From NCBI GenBank assembly GCA_021821195.1, contig JAKACT010000003.1, positions 124,001-188,000 on the forward strand: a DNA stretch of 64,000 nucleotides, given 5' to 3'. The notes under the pieces are model-generated. The model did no database searches. It saw only the letters and a list, made by a program, of their open reading frames with translations, and had not been told where the DNA came from. Shown here one piece after another: positions 3,246 to 16,893 of the stretch. A program made the position numbers and the translations under genes. This DNA is from Pseudomonadota bacterium (GTDB lineage Bacteria > Pseudomonadota > Gammaproteobacteria > Xanthomonadales > Xanthomonadaceae). The stretch's first letter is position 1. Each line of letters opens with the position of its first letter.

Positions 3246-4028
3246 ATGAACGACCTGCACCTGCGCTTCTGCGATGGCCGCCAGCCCGACCTGCCCCTGC
3301 AGCCCGGCGTGCATGCATTCGGCCGCACCCCCGTCGGGCTTGGCCCGGTGGAAGCCGAAGGGCCCGCGCTGCTGCAGCTCTGCAACGATCGCCGCGGCAT
3401 CTGGATGACCGTGAACGAAGGCGTGCGCGGCGTCCACGTCAACGGCCGCCCGGTGCAACAGGTGGCGATGCTGCGCGCCGGCGACAGCATCCACGCCGAC
3501 GGCAGCGAACTGCTGCTGTACGCGGCCAACGACGACCGCGTCCTGCCGCCCTCCACGCCGCCGGTGCGCGATCCGGCCGGCAACCTGCGGATGGTGCTGC
3601 GCGGTGTCGGCGGCCCCTACCACGGCCGCTGCATCAGCCTGGACCGCCCGCGCCGGGTCGGCAGCGCCGCGGCTGCGGACCTGCGCATCGAAGGCGCCGG
3701 CATCGCCGCCGAGCATGCGCTGTTGGAAGCCGGCAACGGCCTGGCGCTGCTGCGCCATGCCGCCGCCGACGTGCTGGTCAACGGCCGCCCGGTGCGCCAG
3801 GAGATCCTGCACAGCGGCGACCAGATCGTGTTCGGGGTACAGCATCGGTTCGTGCTGGAAGGCCCACCGCCGGCCCCCGACGCCCCGCGCACGCCGCCCT
3901 CCACCGAGGCCGACGCCCCGCCGGCACCGCCGCGCAAGCGCTGGACGCAAGGGGTGCCGTGGCTGCTGCTGGCCGCGCTGCTGCTGGCCGCGGCGCTGAC
4001 CGCGCTGCTGGTGTTCGGCGCGCGCTGA
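3246..4028 (+). CDS. FHA-domain protein with C-terminal membrane anchor
   Basis: A 260-residue protein. The C-terminal half of the soluble part has forkhead-associated features: RVGSAAAADLRI (about residues 136-148), an EHALLE turn, and VNGRPV with GDQIVFG near 178-200; FHA domains bind phosphothreonine peptides. The N-terminal 115 residues (HAFGRTPVGLG, VNGRPVQQ, LRAGDSIHADGSELLL) look like a second, more diverged FHA-like copy. A Pro-rich linker (about 205-230) precedes a single hydrophobic helix (about 236-257) ending in FGAR, so the protein is probably tail-anchored in the inner membrane. The gene is divergent from the granule-region gene. The kinase and ligand are unknown. Confidence 0.75.
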   Translation: MNDLHLRFCDGRQPDLPLQPGVHAFGRTPVGLGPVEAEGPALLQLCNDRRGIWMTVNEGVRGVHVNGRPVQQVAMLRAGDSIHADGSELLLYAANDDRVLPPSTPPVRDPAGNLRMVLRGVGGPYHGRCISLDRPRRVGSAAAADLRIEGAGIAAEHALLEAGNGLALLRHAAADVLVNGRPVRQEILHSGDQIVFGVQHRFVLEGPPPAPDAPRTPPSTEADAPPAPPRKRWTQGVPWLLLAALLLAAALTALLVFGAR

Positions 4029-4091
4029 TCCACCTGCCGGGACGACTCCGGGCCACCCCAACCTGCTGGGTAAGAAGCGCTGGCGCCTGCG

Positions 4092-4811
4092 TCAGCCGCC
4101 GCCGAACGGATCGCGATCGCCGGCGAACAGCCGCTGCATCGCCAATGTTTCGCTGCGCCGGATATCGCCGAGGAAATCGCCGACATCGCCCAGCCCGGCA
4201 AACGCCGCGCAGCCGCGTTCGAGGAAGGACTGCAGCGCACCCAACCCCGCCGCCCGCGCCGGCAGCCGCGACAGCCGCAGCAGCGAATGCACGCCGGGCA
4301 GTCGCAGCGCCTCGGCCAGCCCCCGCCCCACCTCGTCGATCAGCTCGATCTGCCGCTGGCGCAGCCGCGGCAGCCCCACCCGGCGATAAGCGCGCGCATA
4401 CAGGGCCACGTCCAGCGCACGCCGGCGCGGCGACAGCGCCTGCAGCGCTTCGGCCATGCGCAGGTCCAGCGCATGGCTGAGCGCGGCCAGGCCGATGCCA
4501 TCGGCCACCGTTTCCAGCAGCGCCGCCGGCAGCAGCCGCTGCATCATCGGGATCACCCGTGCGATGTCGGCATCACGGCGGCTGAAGTCGTGGTCGCCGT
4601 AGACGTCGGTCAGGAAGAACCGCGCCGCCGGACGCCGCGCCGGGTCGCGCAGGAAGACGTCGAAGCTGCGTTCCAGCCGCTGCGCCTGCCAGGCCTGCAG
4701 CGGCTTTAGCCACGCCAGGTCGTTGCGCGGCTCCACCGCCGGGTCGAACAGGCGCTGGTGCAACGCCAGCCGGCGCGCCAGCCGGGAATGCAGGTCAGGG
4801 CGTGGTTGCAT
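4092..4811 (-). CDS. Conserved hypothetical protein with an FFLxxxYG motif
   Basis: A 239-residue, Arg- and Leu-rich, mostly helical protein with no signal peptide or membrane helix. The segment FFLTDVYG (residues 65-72) followed by DFSRRDADI and a MMQRLLP stretch resembles a proteobacterial family named for an FFLEELY motif; no function is established. The start at 4811 gives MQPRPDLHSRL; an open frame to 4847 is possible but has a less likely Arg-rich leader. The gene is convergent with the FHA gene and divergent from the patatin gene, with which it may share the 87-base upstream region. Functional assignment is not possible. Confidence 0.6.
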   Translation of the reverse strand: MQPRPDLHSRLARRLALHQRLFDPAVEPRNDLAWLKPLQAWQAQRLERSFDVFLRDPARRPAARFFLTDVYGDHDFSRRDADIARVIPMMQRLLPAALLETVADGIGLAALSHALDLRMAEALQALSPRRRALDVALYARAYRRVGLPRLRQRQIELIDEVGRGLAEALRLPGVHSLLRLSRLPARAAGLGALQSFLERGCAAFAGLGDVGDFLGDIRRSETLAMQRLFAGDRDPFGGG

Positions 4812-4898
4812 GCGTGCAGTGTCGGCGCGCGCCGGTTCCCGACGCAATACTCTAAGGACGCTCCGCTACACTCGGGAAACCCCGCAAGAGCCGCCCGC

Positions 4899-6164
4899 AT
4901 GCTGTCCCTGCACGCCGCCCACGCCCCCCGCCCGGCCCACGATCCGCCACGGATCGGGCTGGCGATCGCCGGCGGCGGGCCGGTCGGCGCGATGTACGAA
5001 CTGGGTGCGCTGCGCGCGCTGGACGAAGCCTGCGACGGCCTCGACCTGACCCGGCTGGACTGCTACGTCGGGGTCAGCTCGGGCGCGTTCTTCGCCGCCG
5101 GCCTCGCCAACCGGATGGACACCGCAGAGCTGTGCCGGATCTTCATCAGCGGCGACAGCGAGGACGTGCGGTTCCGCCCGGAAACCTTCCTGCGCCCGGC
5201 GCTGGGCGAATACCTCAAGCGCGCCGCGGCCACCCCGCGGCTGGCCGCGCGGCTGCTGCGCGACGCCTGGTCGGGCCGCACCGATTCGCGCTGGTCGGAC
5301 CTGCTCAACCGGGTCGGCAGCCTGGTACCCACCGGGTTGTTCGACAACGCCGAGGTCGAACGCTTCCTGCGCGACGTGTTCTCCCGCCGCGGCCGCAGCA
5401 ATGACTTCCGCAAGCTCGACCGCGCGCTGTACGTGATCGGCGTGGACCTGGACAGCGGCGAGGCGGTGCGCTTCGGCGACAAAGGTTGGGACGACGTGCC
5501 GATCTCGCGCGCGGTGCAGGCCAGCGCGGCGCTGCCGGGGCTGTATCCGCCGGTGGAAATGGCCGACCGCGCCGGCCGCACCCGCCATTTCGTCGATGGT
5601 GCCCTGCGCCGCACCATGCACGCTTCGGTGGTGCTGGACCGCGGCGTCGACCTGATGCTGGGGATCAACCCGCTGGTGCCGTTCAATCCCGGCACCGACG
5701 CCAGCGAAGAGGCGCAGGCGCACCGCTTCAGCGACCGCCGCATCATCCAGGCCGGCCTGCCCGGCGTGTTGTCGCAAACCCTGCGCACCATGCTGCAATC
5801 GCGCATGCAGGTGGGCTTGGCGCGCTATCCGCAGCAGTACCCGGGGATCGACCAGGTGGTGTTCGAACCCAACGCCGCCGACCGCGAACTGTTCTACACC
5901 AACATCTTCAGCTTCTCGGCGCGGCGGCGGATCTCGCAACTGGCCTACCGCAACACGCTGGCCGACCTGCGCGAACGCCGCGCGCAGCTAGGGCCAGTGC
6001 TGGCCCGCCACGGCATCACCCTGCGCGAAGAGGTGATCGCCGACCGCCCGCGTTCGATCCTGGCCCACCTGCCGCCATCGCCGCGCGTCACCGACGCCAC
6101 CGCCCAACTCACCCACGCACTGGACGACATCGAACGCAGCCTACGCCGCCGCGGCATGGTGTGA
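4899..6164 (+). CDS. Patatin-like phospholipase
   Basis: A 421-residue protein with the patatin catalytic layout: the oxyanion-hole glycine run IAGGGPVGAMYELGALRAL (residues 23-41), the nucleophile motif GVSSG with Ser60, and the second dyad residue in FVDGA (Asp233). These enzymes hydrolyse acyl esters of phospholipids. No signal peptide is seen, so a cytoplasmic or peripheral membrane location is inferred. The C-terminal third (FSFSARRRISQLAYRNTLADLR) is helical and family-specific. ATG at 4899 is used because it precedes the conserved domain; an open frame from 4758 runs over the divergent gene and is not typical. TACACT at about 4868 may be a -10 element. The substrate is not predictable. 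Confidence 0.85.
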   Translation: MLSLHAAHAPRPAHDPPRIGLAIAGGGPVGAMYELGALRALDEACDGLDLTRLDCYVGVSSGAFFAAGLANRMDTAELCRIFISGDSEDVRFRPETFLRPALGEYLKRAAATPRLAARLLRDAWSGRTDSRWSDLLNRVGSLVPTGLFDNAEVERFLRDVFSRRGRSNDFRKLDRALYVIGVDLDSGEAVRFGDKGWDDVPISRAVQASAALPGLYPPVEMADRAGRTRHFVDGALRRTMHASVVLDRGVDLMLGINPLVPFNPGTDASEEAQAHRFSDRRIIQAGLPGVLSQTLRTMLQSRMQVGLARYPQQYPGIDQVVFEPNAADRELFYTNIFSFSARRRISQLAYRNTLADLRERRAQLGPVLARHGITLREEVIADRPRSILAHLPPSPRVTDATAQLTHALDDIERSLRRRGMV

Positions 6165-6239
6165 ATGCTCTAGACGGCGCGCGGATCCTGCATTGCAATC
6201 CATACCACGCATGCGTCGCCACGACGCGGGGAGTACGCC

Positions 6240-6884
6240 ATGGCCAAGCTCAAGAAGTCCGCCGCAAAGACCGCACGCACCACCACGCGCAAGGCCGGCG
6301 CCAGCAAGCCGCGCCCCGGCATCAACCCGAAGTCGATCACCGAATCGGCGCAGCAGATCTGGCTGGCCGGGATGGGCGCGTTCAACCGCGCGCAGTCCGA
6401 GGGCAGCAAGCTGTTTGAAACGCTGGTGCGTGACGGCCTGTCGTTGGAGCAAACCGCGCGCAAGTTCGCCGGCCACCGCGCCACCGTGGTTCGCGACGCC
6501 GTGGAAGGGCATGTCGACCAGGCCCGCGAACGCGCCGCCGACACCTGGGACAAGCTGGAAAAAGTGTTCGAGGAGCGCGTGCAGCGCGCACTGGTGAAGC
6601 TGGGCGTGCCCGGGCGCAATGACCTCAACGCCCTGGCCGAGCGGGTGGAACGCCTGACCGATGCACTGCGCAAGTCCGGCGGCGGCACGCCGACGCGCAA
6701 GCCGGCCAAGCCCGTCGCCAAGGCCAAGCCGGCCCCCCGCAAGCCGGCCAAGGCCGCAGGCAAGGCCGCCAAGCCCGCCGCCAAACCCGTAGCGAAGAAG
6801 ACCAGCAAGGTCGCCAAGGTACGCAAGCCGGGCAAGGCGCCCGCGCAGGCCGAAGCCACCGGCAGCGGCACCAGCAACGCCTGA
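6240..6884 (+). CDS. Phasin family protein (granule-associated) with Lys-rich tail
   Basis: A 214-residue protein of the PhaF/PhaI-like phasin group that coats polyhydroxyalkanoate granules. The central part (residues 35-145) has the family pattern: IWLAGMGAFNRAQSEGSKLFETLVRDG, then an amphipathic helix with repeated hydrophobic spacing, and LAERVERLTDAL. The N-terminal 25 and C-terminal 65 residues are rich in Lys, Ala and Pro with KPAKP and KPVAK units, like histone H1 tails, which in PhaF bind DNA. The start at 6240 is supported by GGGGAG just upstream. No PHA synthase is present here; phaR is 35 kb away. The role in granule segregation is inferred from the tail. Confidence 0.85.
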   Translation: MAKLKKSAAKTARTTTRKAGASKPRPGINPKSITESAQQIWLAGMGAFNRAQSEGSKLFETLVRDGLSLEQTARKFAGHRATVVRDAVEGHVDQARERAADTWDKLEKVFEERVQRALVKLGVPGRNDLNALAERVERLTDALRKSGGGTPTRKPAKPVAKAKPAPRKPAKAAGKAAKPAAKPVAKKTSKVAKVRKPGKAPAQAEATGSGTSNA

Positions 6885-6894
6885 TCCGGCCATT

Positions 6895-6916
6895 GCCGGG
6901 CCAGCAAGGCCCCGGC
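6895..6916 (+). terminator. Weak hairpin after the phasin gene
   Basis: GCCGGGCC and GGCCCCGGC can pair around a 5-base loop with one bulged base, 10 bases after the stop codon. There is no T-run, so this is a weak candidate. Confidence 0.3.
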
Positions 6917-7016
6917 TACGCGCCCACGGGCATCCTCCCGCCCATGCCACCTCGCCCGGCCCTCGGGAAACGGACGCGCGTGTCCTGCCTGCGCCTGCGT
7001 TCCACGTTCCAGTGGG

Positions 7017-7022
7017 TATAGT
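7017..7022 (+). promoter_or_regulatory. Putative -10 element of the Mrr-like gene
   Basis: TATAGT lies 32 bases before the ATG at 7055. The expected -35 position (about 6994-6999, cctgcg) is a poor match, so support is limited. Confidence 0.35.
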
Positions 7023-7054
7023 GACGTCCCCCGCGTCTTCCGCTGCCCGACCGC

Positions 7055-8017
7055 ATGATGCCGACCCTGATCGCCTTGATCGTCTTCGCCCTGTCCGGCC
7101 TCGGACTCACTGCTTGGCTGCGCCGCAACCAAGCAGCGCGACCGGCGCCCACGTCCGTGGAACGTAGCGCCGACCAGCTGAGCAAGCTGCGCTGGCGCGA
7201 CTTCGCCAAGCTGGTCCTGCAAGTGATGCACGCACGCGGTTACCGGGTCGCCGCCGAGGAAGGACAGCCGGCCGACGGCATCCCCACCGACGGCAGCGAT
7301 ATCGTGCTGGAGCGCGACGGCGTCCGCACCCTGCTGTCCTGCAAGTACGGCAGCGCCTCGGTGGTCGGCGCGCAGGCGCTGCTGGGGTTGGCCAAGTCCG
7401 CCACCCTACGCGGTGCCGGCGAGGTGATCGTGGTCACGCCGGGCCGCTTCGACGAAGAAGCCGCCCGCATCGCCCGCCAGCAGGACATCGAACTGATCGA
7501 CGGGCCGAGCCTGTGGCCGGAAGTGCGGCCATACGTCGGCAACGAGGCGGTACTGGCCGAAGCCAAGCCATCGAATGCCACTGCACCGACGATGATCGGG
7601 CTGGCCTGGGGTGGCGCCGCGGTCATCGGTGGCCTGGCCTGGATGTTGGCGCAGGGCGTGCTGCCCACCGAGGACACTGCACCGCAGGTCGACGCGCCAC
7701 CACCGGCCGTCGCCCACGCCACCCCACTGACGCCGCAGCCCACGCCAACCAGCGTGGTTCCTACCGACCCAGCCATGCTGGAAGCGCGCAGGCGGGAAGC
7801 CGCCAACGCCATCACCACGCTGTTTGGCGTCGATCGCGCGCTGTGGTCGACCCAGTCCACCCTGCTGGTATACCTGTCCACGGAAGACGTCGACCCGACC
7901 ACCGACCTGTGCCCGCTGCTCGAGCGCTACCCGGAACTGGCCGCTTCGCGCGTGCAGTTGCAGCCACCCGCCGGCAGCCGCAAGCCGGTACGTTTCAAGC
8001 AGTGCCGGACGTATTGA
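7055..8017 (+). CDS. Membrane-anchored Mrr-like restriction endonuclease-fold protein
   Basis: A 320-residue protein. An N-terminal hydrophobic helix (residues 4-21) is followed by an Mrr_cat-like nuclease fold: RWRDFAKLVLQVMHARGYRV (47-65), GSDIVLERDG with Asp82, and the LLSCKYG segment with Lys97, then GAGEVIVVTPGRF. The Asp...x-Lys spacing fits a PD-(D/E)xK core, with Cys before the Lys where Gln or Glu is more usual. A second hydrophobic segment (about 180-200), a Pro/Thr-rich linker and a C-terminal domain of about 100 residues follow. Related proteins are widespread in Xanthomonadaceae; activity is untested. Base composition is like the surrounding core, so it seems not to belong to the AT-richer module that begins 400 bases downstream. 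Confidence 0.7.
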   Translation: MMPTLIALIVFALSGLGLTAWLRRNQAARPAPTSVERSADQLSKLRWRDFAKLVLQVMHARGYRVAAEEGQPADGIPTDGSDIVLERDGVRTLLSCKYGSASVVGAQALLGLAKSATLRGAGEVIVVTPGRFDEEAARIARQQDIELIDGPSLWPEVRPYVGNEAVLAEAKPSNATAPTMIGLAWGGAAVIGGLAWMLAQGVLPTEDTAPQVDAPPPAVAHATPLTPQPTPTSVVPTDPAMLEARRREAANAITTLFGVDRALWSTQSTLLVYLSTEDVDPTTDLCPLLERYPELAASRVQLQPPAGSRKPVRFKQCRTY

Positions 8018-8107
8018 GCGGCGCGACACGGGCGCACCAGCGCACCTGCTGCCGGCCGCTGTTGCCGGCAATGGCACCGCCCGCTGGCTTGCCACCATGC
8101 CTCATCC

Positions 8108-8131
8108 AAAGCCCCGCGTGAGCGGGGCTTT
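8108..8131 (+). terminator. Rho-independent terminator
   Basis: A perfect 10-base stem (AAAGCCCCGC / GCGGGGCTTT) with a gtga loop, followed by TT, 90 bases after the Mrr-like gene. The A-run on one side and T-run on the other let it work in both directions. The rest of the 413-base gap 8018-8430 holds only the methyltransferase promoter region; I recognise no gene in it. Confidence 0.8.
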
Positions 8132-8399
8132 TGCTTGCCGAACACCCGGCGCAGCGACCATAGCCGCCTTGACCTTGACCGCGGAGCACACTTCCCCCAT
8201 CGACCGCGAAGGCGAGGATCCCAATTAGGCGACGGCGCCACCGACCACCCTCCAGCAACGTAGGCGTCCACATGGCTGATCGACAAGACCACGCACACTA
8301 TCACCGGCACCACGGGCTTCAGGACGCAAGTGGAGATGGAGACGATGGGCAGACAGCCAGAAGAGGAGGGAGATCAACGCAATGTCGGCTTCACACCCC

Positions 8400-8422
8400 T
8401 ATAATCCCCCTCGCACCGGGGG
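8400..8422 (+). promoter_or_regulatory. Putative methyltransferase promoter and operator hairpin
   Basis: A perfect TATAAT (8400-8405) is followed at once by an inverted repeat CCCCC (8406-8410) and GGGGG (8418-8422) that would span the transcription start. The ATG at 8431 is only 26 bases from the -10 box and has no good ribosome-binding site, so the message would have a short leader. A hairpin or operator at the start site is a plausible way to control methyltransferase dose. The -35 region is weak. Confidence 0.5.
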
Positions 8423-8430
8423 CCGCCTGA

Positions 8431-9372
8431 ATGACACGACCGACAGCCATTTCACTCTTCTCAGGTTGCGGTGGATCCGACAGCGGCCTTGTTGCGGCCG
8501 GCTTCGATGTACTGATGGCCAACGACCTCTTGGCCTACGCGGCAGAGACCTATCAAGCCAATCTGCCGCCGACCGACTACAGGCTGTGTCCGATCGAAGA
8601 GATCAGGAGCTTTCCTGCAGCCGACCTTCTAGTTGGCTGCTATCCCTGCCAGGGCTATAGCCAAGGTGGCGCGCGCGAAGCCTCGCGGGGCATCAACTAC
8701 TTGTTCAAAGAGTTCGGTCGCGCCCTGCGTGCCATTCGCCCCAAAGCTTTCATTGTTGAGAACGTCTCCGGACTTACGCGCGCAGATAATCGGGCGCTCT
8801 TCCAACATCAGCTACGCAATTTCCGCCAAGCGGGTTACACCGTGCAGTGGAAGCTGCTCAATGCAGCACATTACGGCGTAGCGCAGGAGCGAAACCGCGT
8901 CATCATCGTTGGCATTCGCACCGACATGGGAGTGAGCTACGAATACCCGGAACCTACGCACGGGCCCAATGCCGGCTTGCCGTACGTCACCATTCGCGAT
9001 GCGCTGCAAGGACTACCAGAATGGCCGGAGGGTGAATTTAATTCGGAAGAATTCCACTGGTATTACATGTCACGGAATCGCCGCCGCGACTGGGATGAGG
9101 TTTCGAAGACCGTTGTGAGCCGTGCCCGACACATGCCCCTGCATCCCATGAGCCCCCCCCTAGTCTACAAAGGGCCAGACCGCTACGAATTTGAGAACAG
9201 CGGACCTGCGCGCCGCTTTAGCTATCGTGAGGCTGCCTGCCTGCAGGGCTTCACCAAAGATATGGTGTTCCCGGACAGCAATGGAATGCACAATCGCTAT
9301 AAAGTTATTGGAAACGCAGTCCCGCCGCACTTGTTTGAGGCAGTAGCGCGCGCACTGCCCAATATATGGTAA
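8431..9372 (+). CDS. DNA (cytosine-5-)-methyltransferase
   Basis: A 313-residue C5-cytosine methyltransferase that moves a methyl group from S-adenosylmethionine to a DNA cytosine. Motifs are in the standard order: I (SLFSGCGGSDSG, 8-19), IV with the catalytic Cys73 in GCYPCQGYSQGG, VI (FIVENV, 107-112), VIII (QERNRVIIVG), and X (GNAVPPHLF) near the C-terminus. The short target-recognition region (about 185-250) gives no clue to the sequence recognised. The gene is complete. Its stop codon abuts the stop of the opposing nuclease-like gene with no space between. It should protect host DNA if the facing genes form a restriction activity, but a solitary regulatory role cannot be excluded. Confidence 0.93.
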   Translation: MTRPTAISLFSGCGGSDSGLVAAGFDVLMANDLLAYAAETYQANLPPTDYRLCPIEEIRSFPAADLLVGCYPCQGYSQGGAREASRGINYLFKEFGRALRAIRPKAFIVENVSGLTRADNRALFQHQLRNFRQAGYTVQWKLLNAAHYGVAQERNRVIIVGIRTDMGVSYEYPEPTHGPNAGLPYVTIRDALQGLPEWPEGEFNSEEFHWYYMSRNRRRDWDEVSKTVVSRARHMPLHPMSPPLVYKGPDRYEFENSGPARRFSYREAACLQGFTKDMVFPDSNGMHNRYKVIGNAVPPHLFEAVARALPNIW

Positions 9373-10281
9373 TCAAACAACCTCAAGGCGAGAATTAAGA
9401 AAATCGCTCAATATAGCCGGCGGATCTATCCGCACCCAATCCTCATCAGGCTGAATGAGGCGCAGCAACCTGTATCTATCGATCAGGATTTTGTCTGCAA
9501 CCTCGGAGTCCAAATACCAGCGGCCATTGTTGTTGCGGAAACATATGGGGATGCAGATTAGCTCCAACCAAGGACTGGTTGGATTAAAAAGCTTTCCTAG
9601 TCTCCCGACACTTATCTCAAATTGCTTACTCGTCCATTCATCGCGCGAGCATGCACATTGCGCCAAGCAAGTAAATTTATTTTCACCCTCGTGATCATCT
9701 AATGTAAGCCAGGCAGCTAAATCGATGCCGCCGTCCCCTGCATCGCCAGTACGAAACTTTGCAGGATCAATCGATGGACGACAACCCAGATCAACGGCAA
9801 GCTTGTGCAGACGCTCAGACTTCGTCCCTACATATTGGGCATTATTTTTCCCAAATGCCCTCACCTCGGCAGACTGAGGCCACATCCTTCGCAATGCGAG
9901 GTGTGCAGCACGCTCGAACGCGTCAGTTAGCGTCTTGTAATGTTTCCTTTCTAGATATGGCAGATTGGCGCAAAGCAATAGAAACACATAAGCCTGCTGC
10001 TTAATTGCCAACCCATCTGGCGCAGAAATTGACTGCTGATTATTTGCAACGCTAAATGCATAATAGTCACGGAAAGCACTAGCGCGCCAAGTCATGTGCG
10101 AGAAGACGTCCCCCAGCGATCTTCGACCGCGCACCTCGCCACATGTATCAACCAAATGATCCTCAAGGTCTTCAACAGACAGAATTCTGTCAGGCTTTAG
10201 TAGACAAAGAAGCTCTGCAAAGTCAGCGACCGTGTGGATATCCCCATCGGTAACGCGATCAAGCATCAGCATCGGTCGCAT
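9373..10281 (-). CDS. Restriction endonuclease-like protein (PD-(D/E)xK-type motif)
   Basis: A 302-residue protein I do not recognise as a whole. Residues 178-216 read RTGDAGDGGIDLAAW, then 16 residues on LAQCACSRDEW. This is the layout of a group of nuclease-fold proteins with a GDGGID strand followed by a QC-A/K-x-S/G strand; the usual lysine position appears to hold Ala, so the catalytic core may be altered. The N-terminal 160 residues are helical and family-specific. Three ATGs (10281, 10272, 10266) all overlap the ParB-like gene upstream by up to 23 bases, so the two are likely co-translated. It faces a cytosine methyltransferase and is proposed as its restriction partner. No target site can be read. 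Confidence 0.6.
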   Translation of the reverse strand: MRPMLMLDRVTDGDIHTVADFAELLCLLKPDRILSVEDLEDHLVDTCGEVRGRRSLGDVFSHMTWRASAFRDYYAFSVANNQQSISAPDGLAIKQQAYVFLLLCANLPYLERKHYKTLTDAFERAAHLALRRMWPQSAEVRAFGKNNAQYVGTKSERLHKLAVDLGCRPSIDPAKFRTGDAGDGGIDLAAWLTLDDHEGENKFTCLAQCACSRDEWTSKQFEISVGRLGKLFNPTSPWLELICIPICFRNNNGRWYLDSEVADKILIDRYRLLRLIQPDEDWVRIDPPAILSDFLNSRLEVV

Positions 10282-11350
10282 CCTCCACTACGCTCGACCT
10301 AAGTGACACATAAAGATTTTGAGCGGCTCGTGCAAGGCGATGTGAAAAAGACACATCGGAATTCTCCAACCCCACAGCATGAATACTTGTATCTTGAGCA
10401 GCCTTTAGAGACTTCTCTGCCTCCACCATGAATGTCCTAAGTGCCTCGAGCGGGCCGGACGTATAGAGGTAGGCGGTCTCAATGCCTTCGCTACGCCTAA
10501 CTGCCGCCAGCGCATCAGCGTGCAAAACAATCTTATTCAGTTGCTTGAATTTTCTGGAATCACCCAAGACTGTTGATCCGCCACGGCGATCAAAAATCCA
10601 CTTAAAAAATTCCCTGAACTCATCCCCTTTAAGATTTCCGAGATCTACATCCGCGATCCCGTCGAGACCAATAAATTTTTGAATACCGTCGTAGCCAATG
10701 CCTGTCGTTAGAAGAGAGAACTCAATATCGTCTTCCGATTGTTTGATCTCGCTCAGCAACCCAACATCGCGAGCATGCTCAAGAAGAGCATAGCCCGTGA
10801 GGAGCTTTGCCACATTAGTGGATTTACTGCCGATAGTTCGAGCCAATGCCCTATGCGCCAACAAATGATCGTCCCCATGCTGCGCCCGGAGCTGCTTCAA
10901 GTACCGAGCTTTTGCTAAAGGGCTCCATTCTTTGATGCCAGTGATGTGCCGGTACCCGAGATAACCCAAGATCTCATCGCGCTCCGGGAAGGCAAGCACG
11001 GGAATACTTGTTGGCTTGTGATTTGCGGACGCCCGAACCTGTTCAACCTCTCTCGGCTTGACCGGCGCAGGGTCAGCGCTTGCCAAAAGCTTCAAAGCCC
11101 CGAGCCTGCGATTCCCTTCAACCACCCAGTAACCCGTTTGCGGCGCTGGACGTGGGACTACGAGCAAAGGCTCACCTTCAAAGTAGCCCTTTTCACCTAT
11201 CGACTGCATCAGCTCGACAAGGTTTGCTTCGAGTAGCAGGTACTCCAAGACTGGACCGTCGTCTGCTCGATGAAGACTCGACGGCAATCTTGGATTGAGC
11301 GGGTCGAAATGCAGATCCCGCAAATCCAGACTCTGGGGCCTTCCACTCAT
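10259..11350 (-). CDS. ParB/Srx-fold N-terminal domain protein
   Basis: A 363-residue protein whose N-terminal 90 residues match the ParB/sulfiredoxin fold: LDLRDLHFDPLNPRLP, then YFEGEPLLVVP (56-66), and VVEGNRRLGALKLL (76-89), where ENR-R stands in for the GERR nucleotide-binding motif of ParB CTPases. The middle (about 135-200) is helical and may contain a helix-turn-helix (ALARTIGSKSTNVAKLLTGY). The C-terminus is unfamiliar. A good SD (GGAGAG, 8 bases before ATG) supports the start at 11350. There is no parA and no recognisable parS, so chromosome partition is unlikely. Its place upstream of, and overlapping, the nuclease-like gene suggests a role in a restriction or defence complex; this is inference. 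Confidence 0.65.
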   Translation of the reverse strand: MSGRPQSLDLRDLHFDPLNPRLPSSLHRADDGPVLEYLLLEANLVELMQSIGEKGYFEGEPLLVVPRPAPQTGYWVVEGNRRLGALKLLASADPAPVKPREVEQVRASANHKPTSIPVLAFPERDEILGYLGYRHITGIKEWSPLAKARYLKQLRAQHGDDHLLAHRALARTIGSKSTNVAKLLTGYALLEHARDVGLLSEIKQSEDDIEFSLLTTGIGYDGIQKFIGLDGIADVDLGNLKGDEFREFFKWIFDRRGGSTVLGDSRKFKQLNKIVLHADALAAVRRSEGIETAYLYTSGPLEALRTFMVEAEKSLKAAQDTSIHAVGLENSDVSFSHRLARAAQNLYVSLRSSVVEDATDADA

Positions 11351-11556
11351 CTAATGCTCTCCAAAAAAAACACAACAGCACACGCAAAGTGCAATCCTGT
11401 ACCGCAAATGATGCTGCCCTACACGTACGTTGAGCAGGAGATGCCGCTGGTTGCGGCGCGATCAACTAGTTTCTCAGACTAATCATTACTGTTTACCCAA
11501 TGAGCAGCACCGGTAAGAGCAGGTATCGCCGCCTTCCCTAGAATCCCCGCGCGAAC

Positions 11557-12228
11557 TCAGCGCAGGCTGCAGTCGCTCAGCGACGGCATGCCGATCACTT
11601 CACCGGCGCCGGTGCAGGCCAGGGTGATTTCCTGCCCCTTCGACAGGCCTGCGGCAGTGGCGGTGTCCAGACCGTTGGCGTGGACCATCTGGAACATCTC
11701 GCCGCCGGCCAGCTGCACCACCGGTTCGTCGGTGATGTTGGAGGTGATGGCCTCCACGACGCCGGTGATTTCGATGGACTTGCCCTTGAACTTGCTGTCG
11801 GCGGCCACCTCGTTGGCGTCGTAGGCCTTGAACAGCTCGCGCGCGGTGACCTTGATGGCGTCGGCGGGCGGCGCGGCCGGTTCAGCCTGTTCCGTGCGCG
11901 CGGCGCTAGCCGCTTCGGCGCGGGCCTTGTAGTCCTTGTACGCGCCGCCAGACACTGCGGCGCCGGCCAGCACTGCCAAGCCAATGAAATAGATGATCGG
12001 CGACACTACCAGCGACGCGATCAGCGGGATCAACCCCTTGCCGGTGAGGCCGCGCGTCATGACCACGATGGCCAGGATGAAGGCCACCAGATTGAGCGGC
12101 CAGCCGACGAATATGCCTACACCCGGAATGGGCAGCAGGAACAGCACCCACGCGATGATCAGGCAGATCCATGTAGCCTTGACCGGCGCGGGCTTCATCG
12201 CCGGCGATGCTTCGGTTGCTGCGTTCAT
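11557..12228 (-). CDS. Membrane protein with C-terminal tRNA_anti-like OB-fold domain
   Basis: A 223-residue protein. Residues 18-95 form two or three hydrophobic helices (WICLIIAWVLFLLPIPGVGIF; LVAFILAIVVM; PLIASLVVSPIIYFIGLAVL). After a charged, Ala-rich linker comes an OB-fold module (about 122-223): ARELFKAYDANEVAADSKFKGK, then IEITGVVEAI and GQEITLACTGAGEVIGMPSLSDC. This matches the tRNA_anti-like family of unknown function. The second in-frame ATG (12228) is preferred because the G-run lies about 7 bases before it; the first ATG (12234) is too close to that G-run. The gene borders the AT-richer module but has host-like composition. No pathway can be assigned. Confidence 0.7.
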   Translation of the reverse strand: MNAATEASPAMKPAPVKATWICLIIAWVLFLLPIPGVGIFVGWPLNLVAFILAIVVMTRGLTGKGLIPLIASLVVSPIIYFIGLAVLAGAAVSGGAYKDYKARAEAASAARTEQAEPAAPPADAIKVTARELFKAYDANEVAADSKFKGKSIEITGVVEAITSNITDEPVVQLAGGEMFQMVHANGLDTATAAGLSKGQEITLACTGAGEVIGMPSLSDCSLR

Positions 12229-12598
12229 TTCCATTCCCCCCGTGTAAGCGCCTATCCAATCCGCGGCGCAGTCGGCATTCGAAACTCAGGGCCACACAAT
12301 CGTGCAAGGCCGTGACGGCGGACACGAAGCTAGCGTGTGGCGGCAATTACCCGCATTTCTCTCAGCTCGCGCCCCAGCCATAGCGTTCCCCACTCCCCTC
12401 GCCCCCAACCATAGCTAAGGGAGATGGGAGGCCGCAACCACGCCAAAGCGTTCCGGTGCGCAACCGTCCCCAACAAAACTGGCCCTTGAGCCCGAGGAAG
12501 GGGCTGCATAGATACCGTGAGCGCTAGGGGCTCGCGCGTTTGACGCCCTCCCTACGCCGGCTCAGGAACACTCGCCGGCGACCGACCGAGGATTCGAG

Positions 12599-12713
12599 AT
12601 GTGCTACTCCGCGCAGGTGTGAACCCATTGGCGTAAGTACCAGCGCGCCTACGGCGCCACGATCGACATCGATGAGTTCGCCAGGATCTATGCTGCCCCA
12701 ACATGCCACTGAT
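12599..12713 (+). pseudogene. Remnant of an SRAP (YedK/HMCES-like) gene N-terminus
   Basis: The 625-base stretch between the OB-fold gene and tRNA-Cys holds no intact gene. In it, an ATG at 12599 begins MCYSAQV, the N-terminus of a group of SOS response-associated peptidases whose Cys2 is the DNA-crosslinking residue. An in-frame TGA follows at codon 8, after which the same frame continues with WRKYQRAYGATIDIDEFARIY, which also fits the family before decaying to a stop at 12711-12713. I infer a dead 5' fragment with the rest deleted. The match is from memory of the family, so confidence is moderate. Confidence 0.45.
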
Positions 12714-12814
12714 GGCCCGCACCTGAGCGACAACTTGGCTACGGTAACGCTTGCGAGGCGCAGGCTGAGACCGGATACGGATCGGATACTAGACCAGCGA
12801 CAGCCAGAAAAATA

Positions 12815-12848
12815 AAGCCCCGCAAGGGCTGAAACCGTTGCGGGGCTT
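12815..12848 (-). terminator. Terminator after tRNA-Cys
   Basis: An 11-base perfect stem (AAGCCCCGCAA / TTGCGGGGCTT) with a 12-base loop, just beyond the 3' end of tRNA-Cys on the minus strand. Confidence 0.75.
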
Positions 12849-12859
12849 AGCTTTCAAGA

Positions 12860-12933
12860 TGGAGGCCGAGGTCGGAATTGAACCGGCGTACGCGGATTTG
12901 CAGTCCGCTGCATAACCACTCTGCCACCCGGCC
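12860..12933 (-). tRNA. tRNA-Cys (GCA)
   Basis: A 74-base cloverleaf with encoded CCA. The acceptor stem is GGCCGGG paired with CTCGGCC, the anticodon loop reads CTGCAAA (anticodon GCA) and the T-loop has GGTTCAATTCC. It follows tRNA-Gly and pgsA on the same strand, an order like uvrC-pgsA-glyW-cysT of Escherichia coli. Confidence 0.95.
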
Positions 12934-13026
12934 GGATGACGTTTCGCGCCTTGGATTCTTCCACATCGCTTGACCACTTGCGATGCCGGGAAACCCTGGT
13001 GCACACCGGGACATGTCCCGGAAAAA

Positions 13027-13052
13027 ACGAAGCCCCGCGAACGGGGCTTCGT
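13027..13052 (-). terminator. Rho-independent terminator after tRNA-Gly
   Basis: An 11-base perfect stem (ACGAAGCCCCG / CGGGGCTTCGT) with a 4-base loop, followed on the minus strand by six T. It sits between tRNA-Gly and tRNA-Cys, so the two may be only partly co-transcribed. Confidence 0.8.
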
Positions 13053-13057
13053 GAATC

Positions 13058-13133
<76 letters not shown>

Positions 13134-13180
13134 GTTGAGCCCGCTATTCTACGGGCTTTTTTCAGTGCGTCAACACCTTC

Positions 13181-13753
13181 TCACAAACTTTTTTCATCAT
13201 CCGCGCGCAGTGCCGGCCAGGCCGCGCGCACGTACTCGAAACCCGACCACAGGGTCAGGATGGCGGCCGCCGCCAGCAGCCATTCGCCGACCACGAAGAC
13301 CGGGATGCCGAGCAGCGGTTCGCGGTACAGCAGGAAGCCCAGCGCGATCATCTGCACGGTGGTCTTGATCTTGCCGACCATGGCCACCGCCACCTTGGCG
13401 CGCTGGCCCAGCTCGGCCATCCACTCGCGTAGCGCCGATACCGCGATCTCGCGACCGATGATGACGCTGGCCCACAGTGCCATCCAGATCGTGTGGTGGT
13501 GCTGCACGGTGATGACCAGCGCGGTGGAGACCATCAGCTTGTCGGCCACCGGGTCGAGGAAAGCGCCGAACTTCGAGAATTGGCGATAGCGGCGCGCGAT
13601 CCAGCCGTCCAGCCAATCCGTTGCCGCCGCCGCCACGAAAACTACGGTCGCCGCCACGTTGGACCAGCGGTATTCGAGGTAGTAGATCACCACCAGCACC
13701 GGGATCAGGGCGATACGCGCCAGCGTCAGCCAGGTCGGAATGGTCAGGGTCAT
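13181..13753 (-). CDS. pgsA: CDP-diacylglycerol-glycerol-3-phosphate 3-phosphatidyltransferase
   Basis: A 190-residue inner-membrane enzyme making phosphatidylglycerol phosphate, the committed step to phosphatidylglycerol and cardiolipin. The CDP-alcohol phosphotransferase motif (DWLDGWIARR, then GAFLDPVADK) is complete with all its Asp residues. About five or six hydrophobic helices are visible (LVVIYYLEY, VAATVVFVAAAATDW, IWMALWASVIIG, VQMIALGFLLY, VVGEWLLAAAAILTLW). The gene starts 9 bases after uvrC ends and is followed by tRNA-Gly and tRNA-Cys, a gene order shared with enterobacteria. Length matches the family. Confidence 0.95.
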   Translation of the reverse strand: MTLTIPTWLTLARIALIPVLVVIYYLEYRWSNVAATVVFVAAAATDWLDGWIARRYRQFSKFGAFLDPVADKLMVSTALVITVQHHHTIWMALWASVIIGREIAVSALREWMAELGQRAKVAVAMVGKIKTTVQMIALGFLLYREPLLGIPVFVVGEWLLAAAAILTLWSGFEYVRAAWPALRADDEKSL

Positions 13754-13762
13754 GCGCGCATT

Positions 13763-15631
13763 CTACTTGCCGTCCCCGCCGGTGGCGGCATCGGTGGCAA
13801 GCCCGTGCAGGCTGTCCCACAGCCGCTGGGCCAAGGCCCGATTGATGCCTTCGACCTTGGCCAGCTCGTCCACCGGCGCGGCCCTGAGCCCCTGCAGTCC
13901 GCCGAAGTGCTTCAGCAGCGCCGCGCGGCGGCGTGGGCCGATGCCGGCGATGTCCTCGAGCCGGCTGGTGCTGCGCGCCTTCTGGCGCTTGCCGCGGTGG
14001 CCGGTGATGGCGAAGCGGTGGGCCTCGTCGCGCACCTGCTGGACCAGCTGCAGCGCCGGCGACGCCGCGCCGGGCTGGACTTCGCGCCCGTCCGGCAGCA
14101 GCAGGGTTTCCGCGCCGGGCTTGCGTTCCGGACCTTTCGCCACGCCGACCAGCGCGACGCCGGTGATGCCGGCGTCGGTCAGCACGTCGCGTGCCTGCGC
14201 CACCTGCCCGGCGCCGCCATCGATCAGCAGCACGTCAGGCAGCACCGCGTCGGGCTCGCCCTCCGCCGCGGGCCGGAAGCGCCGCTGCAGGGCCTGGTGC
14301 ATCGCCGCGTAGTCGTCGCCGGGCTCGATGCCGGTGATGTTGTAGCGGCGGTACTGCTTGCGCACCGGTCCCTGCGCGTCGAACACCACGCAGGAGGCCA
14401 CCGTCGCCTCGCCCATGGTGTGGCTGATGTCGAAGCACTCGATCCGCGCCGGCAATGCGGGCAGTCCCAGCAGCGCCTGCAACGCCTGCGCGCGCGCCTG
14501 CTGCGCACTGCTGCTGGCCAGCTCGGTGGCCAGCGTCAGCTGCGCATTGCGGCGCACCAGCTCCAGGTGCGCGGCACGCTCACCGCGCACGCTGGTCCGC
14601 AGCTCGACCCGGCGCCCGGCGTGTTCGGTGAGCGCCTGCTCGATCAGCTCGCGCTCCGGGATATCGCCGTCCAGCACGATCTCGGCCGGTGGCGGCTGTT
14701 CGGCGTAGTACTGGGAAACGAACGCAGCCAGCACCTCGGCGGCGCTGTCCTCACCGTTGGTCTTCGGGAAGAACGCGCGGGTGCCGAGGTTGCGGCCGTC
14801 GCGGAACGCCAGCAGCAGCACGCAGGCCGCCGCGCCCTGCATGGCCACGCCCAGCACGTCGAGATCGGCGCTGCGGCCGTCCACGTACTGGCGCGCCTGC
14901 AGCTTGCGGATGGTGGCGATCAGGTCGCGCAGGCGAGCGGCCTGCTCGAACTCCAGCGCGTCGCTGGCGGCCTGCATCGCCGCGCCGAGTTCGTCGCCCA
15001 GCTCCTGGCTGCGTCCTTCCAGGAAAAGCGTTGCACGGCGCACCGAATCCGCGTACTCGCGCTCGTCCACCAGCCCCACGCAGGGCGCGCTGCAGCGGCC
15101 GATCTGGTACTGCAGGCAAGGCCGGCTGCGGTTGCGGAACACGCTGTCTTCGCAGCTGCGCAGGCGGAACAGCTTGTGCATCAGGTTGAGCGTCTCGCGC
15201 ACCGACGCCGCGCTGGGATACGGGCCGAAATAGCGCCCCGGGATCGCGCGCGGGCCCCGATGGAAGGCCAGCCGCGGCCACTGCTCCTTGGTCAGCAGGA
15301 CGAAGGGATAGCTCTTGTCGTCGCGCAGCATCACGTTGTAACGCGGCTGCAGCGACTTGATCAGCTGGTTTTCCAGCAGCAGCGCGTCGGCCTCGCTGCG
15401 GGTGACGGTGGTTTCGATGCGCGCCACCTGCGCCAGCATCGCCATGATGCGGGTCGGCTTCGGGGTGGCGTTGAAGTAGCTGCCCACGCGATTGCGCAGG
15501 GCGCGCGCCTTGCCGACGTAGAGCAGGCCGCCGTCGGCGTCGAACATGCGGTAGACGCCCGGCGCCAGCGGCTGCGCGGCCGCGAATGCGCGGCCATCGA
15601 ATTCCAGTACTGGCGTTCCGCGCTTGCCCAT
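13763..15631 (-). CDS. uvrC: Excinuclease ABC subunit C
   Basis: A 622-residue nuclease that makes the two incisions in nucleotide excision repair after UvrAB recognise damage. Domains in order: GIY-YIG 3'-incision domain (GVYRMFDADGGLLYVGKA, about 20-40), a Cys-rich segment (PCLQYQIGRCSAPC), the UVR motif for UvrB contact (about 200-235, FEQAARLRDLIATI), the RNase H-like 5'-incision domain (CFDISHTMGEATVASCVVF; VLLIDGGAGQVAQA) and two C-terminal helix-hairpin-helix motifs (DIAGIGPRRRAALLKHFGG). The start at 15631 gives MGKRGTPVLEF; a longer open frame upstream belongs to other genes. It begins 4 bases after the phosphatase gene ends and is followed by pgsA. Confidence 0.96.
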   Translation of the reverse strand: MGKRGTPVLEFDGRAFAAAQPLAPGVYRMFDADGGLLYVGKARALRNRVGSYFNATPKPTRIMAMLAQVARIETTVTRSEADALLLENQLIKSLQPRYNVMLRDDKSYPFVLLTKEQWPRLAFHRGPRAIPGRYFGPYPSAASVRETLNLMHKLFRLRSCEDSVFRNRSRPCLQYQIGRCSAPCVGLVDEREYADSVRRATLFLEGRSQELGDELGAAMQAASDALEFEQAARLRDLIATIRKLQARQYVDGRSADLDVLGVAMQGAAACVLLLAFRDGRNLGTRAFFPKTNGEDSAAEVLAAFVSQYYAEQPPPAEIVLDGDIPERELIEQALTEHAGRRVELRTSVRGERAAHLELVRRNAQLTLATELASSSAQQARAQALQALLGLPALPARIECFDISHTMGEATVASCVVFDAQGPVRKQYRRYNITGIEPGDDYAAMHQALQRRFRPAAEGEPDAVLPDVLLIDGGAGQVAQARDVLTDAGITGVALVGVAKGPERKPGAETLLLPDGREVQPGAASPALQLVQQVRDEAHRFAITGHRGKRQKARSTSRLEDIAGIGPRRRAALLKHFGGLQGLRAAPVDELAKVEGINRALAQRLWDSLHGLATDAATGGDGK

Positions 15632-15635
15632 CCGC

Positions 15636-16115
15636 TCAGAACCGACCCTGGCGCACCCGCTCCACGATACCCTGCGCGGCGGCATCGACCAGCTTGAACG
15701 CCTGTTCGAAATCGCGCGCATTGCCGTAGTACGGATCCGGCACGTCCTTCTTGCCGACCCCGCTCCATTCCAGCAGCAGCTCCACCTGCGCATGCGAGGT
15801 ACGCGGCTTGCGCATGCGCGCCTCGTGCAGGATGGTGCGGTCGGCGCAGAGGATGGTGTCGAATTCGTCGAAGTCCTCCAGCGCCAGCCGGCGCGCGCGC
15901 AGTGCGGAGATGTCCACCCCGTGCTTCGCCGCGCAGGCGATGGCGCGCTCGTCCGGCGGGTGGCCGATGTGCGAGCTGCCGGTGGCCGCGGAATCCACGC
16001 GCGCGCGCGACGAGAGCCCCGCTTCTTCCAGCCGCAGGCGCAGTACGCCCTCGGCGGTGGGCGAGCGGCAGATGTTGCCCAGGCACACCATGAGGATGCC
16101 GGTGGCTCTAGCCAT
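15636..16115 (-). CDS. Low-molecular-weight protein-tyrosine phosphatase
   Basis: A 159-residue cytoplasmic phosphatase. The P-loop CLGNICRS (Cys11, Arg17) is near the N-terminus, and the general-acid loop reads DPYYG near residue 122, both intact. The start at 16115 places the P-loop at the usual distance; an open frame back to 16157 is rejected. It overlaps kdsB by 8 bases and precedes uvrC by 4 bases. The same neighbour pair (kdsB then a PtpA-like phosphatase) is known in Pseudomonas. The absence of a tyrosine kinase or capsule genes nearby leaves the substrate open. Confidence 0.92.
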
Positions 16116-16893
16116 GATCGATCCCTGACCTCTGTTGCATGAAGATGTGGTTCGCACGCGCCAGGTCCTCCGGCGTGTCCACGCCCGGCGGGAACGGCGA
16201 CGGCGCCAGCGCGACGGCGATGCGCCAGCCGGCTTCCAGCGCGCGCAGCTGCTCCAGCGCCTCGACCTGCTCCAGCCGGCCCGGCGGCAGCGCCGCGAAC
16301 GCGCGCAGCGCGGCCACGCGATAGCCGTAGATGCCGATGTGGCGCAGCCACTGCCCCGGCGGCATCACGCTGCGGTCGCGGGCGAAGGCATCGCGCGGCC
16401 ACGGTACCGGTGCGCGGCTGAAATACAGGGCGTCGCCGTTTGCGGCGCGCACCACCTTGACCGCGTTCGGATCCAGCAGGGTGTCCACCGCGTCGATCGG
16501 CGTGGCCAGGGTGGCGATGCCGGCGCCGCTGTCGGCGACCGCGCGCGCCACGCAGTTGATGCCATCGGCCGGGGCGAACGGCTCATCGCCCTGCAGGTTC
16601 ACCACGATGGCGTCATCGGCCCAGCCAGCGATGCCGGCGCATTCCGCCAGCCGGTCGGTGCCGGATGCGTGCGCGGGCGAGGTCATCGCGATCCGCACGC
16701 CGCTGTCCTGCAGCGCATCGGCGATGCGGACGTCATCCGTGGCCACCCACACCTCGCGCGCACCGGCGGCCAGCGCGCGGCGGGCGACGTGCAGCACCAT
16801 GGGTTCACCGCCGATCAGCTGCAGCGGCTTGCCCGGCAGGCGGGAGGCGGCATGGCGGGCGGGGATGGCGACGATGAAATCAGGGGTTTGCAT
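16108..16893 (-). CDS. kdsB: 3-deoxy-manno-octulosonate cytidylyltransferase
   Basis: A 261-residue enzyme that activates Kdo to CMP-Kdo for the inner core of lipopolysaccharide. The nucleotide-binding N-terminus [15 protein letters not shown] is intact, as are [30 protein letters not shown], and the GIYGYR and [15 protein letters not shown] segments. Length equals the family norm. A 161-base gap that contains a long inverted repeat separates it from lpxK upstream, so its expression may be partly independent of the lpxK message. The phosphatase gene overlaps its end. Confidence 0.95.

Follow-up and report, generated by a model that had tools for sequence, protein, structure and literature searches.

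The question raised by this locus is whether three adjoining genes in a bacterial genome of the Xanthomonadaceae form a defence system that has not been described. The stretch analyzed, hereafter the window, is 64,000 nucleotides long (GCA_021821195.1, contig JAKACT010000003.1, positions 124,001 to 188,000). The three genes are a 313-codon open reading frame for a cytosine-5 (C5) DNA methyltransferase (8431-9372, plus strand), a 302-codon frame for a nuclease-like protein (9373-10281, minus strand), and a 363-codon frame for a ParB-like protein (10259-11350, minus strand). A sequence-only reading of the window had placed the genes at these positions and described their junctions and AT-richer composition, all of which were borne out. 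The methyltransferase stop codon ends at 9372 and that of the nuclease gene starts at 9373, leaving the two genes flush and tail to tail, and the ParB-like and nuclease frames share a 23-bp overlap at the nuclease start. The GC content in 500-base windows from 8500 to 11749 was 0.48-0.59, compared with 0.68-0.74 in the left flank (4000-8250); on the right it was 0.66 at 11500-11999, dipped to 0.59-0.63 between 12000 and 13500, a stretch before and over two tRNA genes, and then returned to 0.66-0.74. We conclude that the trio is, on balance, probably a restriction-modification-type defence in which the ParB-like protein acts as a nucleoside triphosphate (NTP) switch that permits a separate nuclease to act on DNA lacking the modification.

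Chance is excluded as the origin of this arrangement, because the three-gene layout recurs in phages and in other genomes. A tblastn search of 50,697 phage records with the nuclease found 11 records, and the annotated regions of Pseudomonas phage D14A, Escherichia phage Wphi, and 12474II contain the same ParB and nuclease genes with a convergent, flush methyltransferase gene. Identities to the ParB-like protein, nuclease, and methyltransferase of the window were 58, 48, and 66% for D14A, 35, 26, and 61% for Wphi, and 29, 27, and 61% for 12474II. The methyltransferase was found in 10 phage records (E ≤ 1e-60), all of them among the 11 with the nuclease and all 10 also carrying ParB. ParB itself was present in 15 phage records, of which 4 lack the nuclease, and in 6 plasmid records, where only that of Persicobacter had the nuclease. 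The same trio, tail to tail, also occurs in proteobacterial chromosomes. Among 5,426 complete Escherichia coli genomes, each of two phage-type queries matched 139; at least 80% of the trio was present as the Wphi type in 103 and as the 12474 type in 36, giving 139 in total on the assumption that both queries match the same 139 genomes, as their complementary identity bands suggest. The sequence-only reading had held that methyltransferase homologues found widely without the other two genes would speak against a joint system; in phages the methyltransferase was accompanied by both, and in E. coli, on the assumption just given, every matching genome has most of one or the other trio. In the order to which the window belongs, the nuclease was found in 3 of 299 genomes, the window's own counted, and the methyltransferase in 4 (E ≤ 1e-30); of these four, the trio is present in two, G033 and the genome of the window itself. 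A second survey was positive for 6 of 398 genomes, again including the window's own. Both surveys are samples, and they show a patchy distribution. In genome contigs, a scan with the single sequence gave no matches and an alignment-based scan gave 65 loci.

Comparison of these loci showed which part of the trio is constant. ParB lies directly upstream of the nuclease in all 34 viral loci, a set that includes near copies (e.g., L013/L014, L019-L021, and L027-L029), and in 63 of the 65 genome loci. Of the 34 viral loci, 30 have a convergent C5 methyltransferase gene within 200 bp of the nuclease gene; of the 65 genome loci, 18 do, and 10 more have one within 200 bp on the same strand (28 of 65 in all). 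Within 6 kb, or as far as contig ends allow, 59 of the 65 genome loci have a modification gene: a C5 methyltransferase in 47, some of them lying as far as about 4.8 kb away or matching only weakly (L125, E = 1e-4); Dnd genes in 10, named by NCBIfam in L077 and L106 and by BLAST to those two in the others; and a D12-class N6 methyltransferase in 2. Named examples of partners are found in L077, L106, L110, L115, and L120. In L089 and L093, which are not among the 59, Dpt restriction genes alone precede the contig end. In a ParB tree of 75 rows, the Dnd/Dpt rows form one group and the N6 rows another (Shimodaira-Hasegawa approximate likelihood ratio test support 99 and 100), which indicates that the modification partner has been exchanged. 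The trio proposed as a unit by the sequence-only reading thus does recur, but since the modification partner varies, the constant unit is the ParB-nuclease pair. In one campylobacterotal locus (L105, 7176-11739), the pair is flanked by a GmrSD gene and by an Mrr-type restriction gene whose product includes a HARE-HTH domain.

The ParB-like protein (10259-11350) is predicted to be the NTP-switch and DNA-binding component. The window protein alone matched Pfam ParB_N with an E value of 0.02, under the cut-off; its family profile and its fold match ParB, KorB, and Noc, in keeping with the label it had been given. Both minus-strand products were modeled alone, as the sequence-only reading had suggested. 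The AlphaFold2 model of the ParB-like protein, from a 42-sequence alignment, had a mean predicted local distance difference test (pLDDT) score of 94.6, and its best Foldseek matches were KorB, ParB, and Noc (E about 1e-5). All 42 aligned sequences have NPR, E60, EGNRR, H135, G138, and W142; EGNRR, the nucleotide-binding motif, occupies residues 78-82 (11105-11119, minus strand). A predicted helix-turn-helix follows at about residues 162-195 (10766-10867, minus strand; model helices 162-173 and 177-195), with A170, I173, and G174 conserved in 40, 41, and 40 of the 42 sequences. The second box with a helix-turn-helix after it resembles ParB, and the model contains both the NTP-binding fold of ParB and the helix-turn-helix. 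The long C-terminal helix may be a dimerization element. In the portions of a ParB-fold survey used here, 11 of 28 purified proteins bound NTP, a change of the box arginine abolished binding, and binders of CTP, ATP, and GTP were all found within the fold (PMC12704722).

These features bear on two other explanations. In one, the nuclease alone would recognize its site, in the manner of a type II enzyme, and the ParB-like protein would be merely a regulator like the C proteins of restriction-modification systems. The simple three-gene layout with its convergent methyltransferase and the predicted helix-turn-helix would suit such a regulator; however, ParB and nuclease stay together across changes of modification enzyme, and a nucleotide motif invariant in all 42 sequences goes beyond the needs of a repressor, and we regard this explanation as improbable. 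In the other, the trio would not serve defence: phage self-methylation would evade host restriction, and the pair would serve DNA partition or maintenance. Temperate P2-like phages do carry the trio, and partition is the best-known setting of the ParB fold, but none of the four annotated loci examined, some of them poorly annotated, has a ParA marked next to the pair, and copies of the pair lie in chromosomes and in Dnd islands. A role outside defence therefore seems to us the least probable explanation of all.

The nuclease-like protein (9373-10281) is the predicted restriction effector. The window protein alone had no match in Pfam or NCBIfam, and PADLOC gave only LmuA (E = 0.006); Pfam Mrr_cat matched 5 of 50 family members weakly (best E = 0.019), and the family corresponds to phrog_3984 in PHROGs, listed there as of unknown function. 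The AlphaFold2 model, from a 50-sequence alignment, had a mean pLDDT of 94.8. MspJI was the top match both by profile (E = 0.011) and by Foldseek (E = 6e-4, probability 1.00), which upholds the label nuclease-like, with a fold match that is partial (template modeling score about 0.3). The core is thus predicted to be a restriction fold of the PD-(D/E)XK type nearest to MspJI, and cutting of DNA would be its expected activity. The predicted active-site stretch contains D183, D187, Q208, and K219 (9625-9735, minus strand). All 109 distinct sequences share D183, D187, Q208, R66, R269, and R271. Position 219 is lysine, and the position two residues after Q208 is A, G, or T, in 106 of them; the remaining three have lysine at the canonical position 210 and a residue other than lysine at 219. 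Two of these three (L110 and L111) are nearly identical, and the swap thus represents two lineages. A reciprocal exchange of this kind would be expected if the catalytic lysine had been displaced, and it suggests that the nuclease is an active enzyme. In one viral contig (L012), about 940 bp split the nuclease gene in two.

MspJI acts on methylated DNA. Since it is nearest to the nuclease core, and since a ParB-fold domain is likewise coupled to a nuclease in GmrSD (PMC12373910, in the portion consulted), the pair might cut foreign modified DNA in the manner of type IV enzymes, with the methyltransferase in some other role. In 30 of the 34 viral loci and 28 of the 65 genome loci, however, a methyltransferase that itself makes 5-methylcytosine is encoded no more than 200 bp from the nuclease, and a nuclease dependent on that mark would attack its own host; moreover, the partner may instead be phosphorothioation or N6 methylation. 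We consider a type IV-like activity improbable, slightly more so than a type II-like one.

The methyltransferase (8431-9372) is the presumptive modification component and matched PF00145 with an E value of 3e-62. M.HaeIII was the nearest solved structure (E = 4e-43, residues 6-309), and the alignment runs through the target domain. The motifs had been described as intact, and all 44 distinct close homologues taken from the loci retrieved (profile E < 1e-140, length 290-420 residues) indeed carry PCQ, ENV, and GNAVPP. The target recognition region, residues 208-242 (9052-9156, plus strand), has the pattern FHWYY-x-SR-x-RR...RHMPLHP, which is nearly invariant among the 44 distinct trio methyltransferases; phages and hosts are therefore expected to have one target in common. 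M.HaeIII is specific for GGCC, and from this likeness we predict that the target is GGCC or a close variant.

To the observed conservation, predicted folds, motifs, and partner exchange we add a scheme for the trio in which we infer the self-protection, the reading by the ParB-like protein, and the cutting by the nuclease. The HaeIII-like methyltransferase, assigned to its family by sequence, would methylate cytosine in the host genome at GGCC or a close variant. The ParB-like protein would bind DNA through its helix-turn-helix and an NTP (CTP or ATP) in the EGNRR pocket, and would load or switch its state at unmodified sites. It would then recruit or license the MspJI-like PD-(D/E)XK nuclease encoded by the overlapping gene, and the nuclease, in line with its fold, would cut or nick unmodified invading DNA. 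Methylated self DNA would block loading of the ParB-like protein or reset the switch and so spare the host, by analogy with the phosphorothioate gating of DndI. The ParB-nuclease pair would thus be a portable reader-effector that can be joined to different modification enzymes.

Three observations weigh against this scheme. No modification gene was found near the pair in L079, L088, L091, L101, or the plasmid locus L007. The Dnd islands that host the pair already contain DptFGH. In the window's order, the other two genomes with a methyltransferase have relatives 34% identical to it, and the pair was absent from their flanks of roughly 1.5 kb. A further explanation is abortive infection, in which the ParB-like protein would guard the modification state or the nucleotide pool, and phage interference would free the nuclease against host and phage DNA. 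It draws on NTP binding by ParB-fold proteins (PMC12704722, as excerpted) and on PD-Lambda-5: its A protein has the same ParB-type domain at the N terminus, and in the portion of the report consulted, its discoverers said that the system appears to be a compacted prophage combination of restriction-modification and abortive infection (PMC9519451). The nuclease nevertheless has a DNA-restriction fold, and the methyltransferase that adjoins it or lies close by in 30 of the 34 viral loci is a better fit to self-protection than to guarding; we judge abortive infection unlikely, if the least unlikely of the competing explanations. We therefore retain the reading of the trio as a variant of modification-coupled restriction. 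There is also a real chance, though well short of an even one, that it represents a class of restriction of its own. There, the modification state would be read by an NTP-switched DNA clamp of the ParB type in place of a helicase or translocase; the clamp would pass unmodified DNA on to a dedicated nuclease, and the reader-effector pair would be interchangeable between 5-methylcytosine, N6-methyladenine, and phosphorothioate.

The module lies in a stretch (8018-12859) between two genus-conserved blocks, the left ending with gene 7055-8017 and the right starting with tRNA-Cys at 12860. Gene 7055-8017 and its left neighbors are syntenic in four same-genus genomes; in G160 the gene is fragmented. 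Its product has an Mrr-type restriction domain (Mrr_cat, E = 2e-14). The genes for tRNA-Gly, tRNA-Cys, and tRNA-Leu form a single cluster in four same-genus genomes; in the window, homology to these genomes ends at tRNA-Cys (12860), the cluster is broken exactly after that tRNA, and the tRNA-Leu block of the same genome is on a different contig (G000:C4:133362-135279). Location at a synteny break fits the expectation for an acquired island. Between the module and the tRNAs, gene 11557-12234, for a tRNA_anti-like protein, had no match in the five relatives searched. The region upstream of the ParB-nuclease operon (11351-11556) is by position the probable promoter, and a consensus promoter scan of it found none. 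Scans for consensus promoters, terminators, and repeats gave nothing above chance or noteworthy, and an Rfam scan returned the two tRNAs only. An operator common to the window, L063, and L064 was rejected, as alignment of their upstream regions yielded nothing usable. Five diverged Wphi-like loci (L005 1-227, L024, L025, L030, and L031) have ATGCA boxes ahead of the ParB gene that are invariant within sequence that varies, and may be an operator; by eye, the window has no obvious equivalent.

In open-licence papers, preprints not included, we found no description of ParB with this nuclease and a C5 methyltransferase, or of a link between the nuclease family and Dnd islands. A HEPN family has been placed in operons with ParB and DNA methylase genes (PMC3710099, in the part consulted), and Dnd neighborhoods contain diverse nucleases and cytosine methylases, the ParB passages drawn on there concerning DndB (PMC10853773). 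The parts are thus of known kinds, and the combination, the nuclease family, and its Dnd-island link are apparently undescribed. As for the proposal of an undescribed defence system, the functional coupling and the defence reading hold up as predictions, but the trio itself has long been sequenced in P2-like phages. The analysis brings to light a nuclease family without a clear Pfam match and would assign a function to two phage Wphi genes that lack one. A pair found beside three chemically different DNA marks is a natural test of how a ParB-type switch would read DNA modification, and it raises the question of whether the clamp logic of chromosome segregation has been reused for discrimination of self from non-self. 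Carriers are at hand in the 139 of 5,426 complete E. coli genomes that match a phage-type locus.

Among known systems, phage Wphi has the same trio in the same orientation (gp98, gp96, and mth), and its record assigns no function to gp98 or gp96. As in type II restriction-modification, an intact methyltransferase adjoins the nuclease; the conserved ParB partner argues against an endonuclease that acts alone at its site. The methyltransferase is homologous to M.HaeIII through the target domain, whereas the sole sequence-profile match of the nuclease in the Protein Data Bank is MspJI (the HaeIII endonuclease itself was not compared). With MspJI the nuclease shares its core and the GDGG-x-D...Q motif; membership in that family was rejected, because in the window protein, as in 106 of 109 homologues, the Q-x-K lysine has moved from 210 to 219. 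A large DruE-type helicase nearby is a feature of Druantia type II. The PADLOC profile DruM2 matches the methyltransferase (E = 1e-105), as the DruM-like component of that system would, but membership was rejected, as no DruE-type helicase was seen nearby: the longest open reading frame overlapping 5000-15000 encodes 879 residues (13763-16402) and is by eye UvrC, no DruE profile search having been made. The name PDC-M38A was also rejected, since only the ParB half is common to both, the C-terminal half of PDC-M38A matching, across its whole family, other loci that by eye are recF-like.

DndI and GmrSD (DUF262 plus HNH) likewise join a ParB-superfamily NTPase to a nuclease. DndI reads a DNA mark, and the pair also occurs in Dnd islands. 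DndI is also the closest precedent that has been tested experimentally: according to the text consulted, this fusion of a ParB-superfamily NTPase domain with HNH acts against unmodified phage DNA while leaving phosphorothioated self DNA alone (PMC11662687). The window system differs in having EGNRR instead of DGQQR, a restriction-fold nuclease instead of HNH, and two separate genes with a helix-turn-helix like that of true ParB. Neither window protein has a GmrSD Pfam match, and, with the EGNRR motif, membership was rejected. PD-Lambda-5 (Vassallo 2022), which originates from a P2-like prophage (PMC10482375, in the portion consulted), has a DNA methyltransferase partner, and residues 1-170 of the window ParB match positions 1-173 of 440 of a PADLOC PD-Lambda-5_A profile (E = 1.7e-20). 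PD-Lambda-5_A, however, is one longer protein whose C-terminal region is its own, and its partner is a D12-class N6 methyltransferase, whereas the window system has a separate nuclease and a C5 methyltransferase. The discovery paper does not use the term ParB; the ParB domain and the D12 partner are assigned here from loci matched by the PADLOC profile. Membership was rejected, because the A match is N-terminal only (the member L061 matches profile positions 6-464 of 466) and the window partner is of the C5 class (PF00145), not a D12-class B protein. In L110 and L111 the pair does stand beside a D12 methyltransferase, that of L110 matching PD-Lambda-5_B; at 6710-10873 of L110, a PD-Lambda-5_A-like ParB protein and this methyltransferase are followed directly by the ParB-nuclease pair, and L111 has a near copy of this arrangement, which is a possible link between PD-Lambda-5 and the pair. 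Our best reading is thus of a defence related in its logic to PD-Lambda-5 and DndI and a member of neither.

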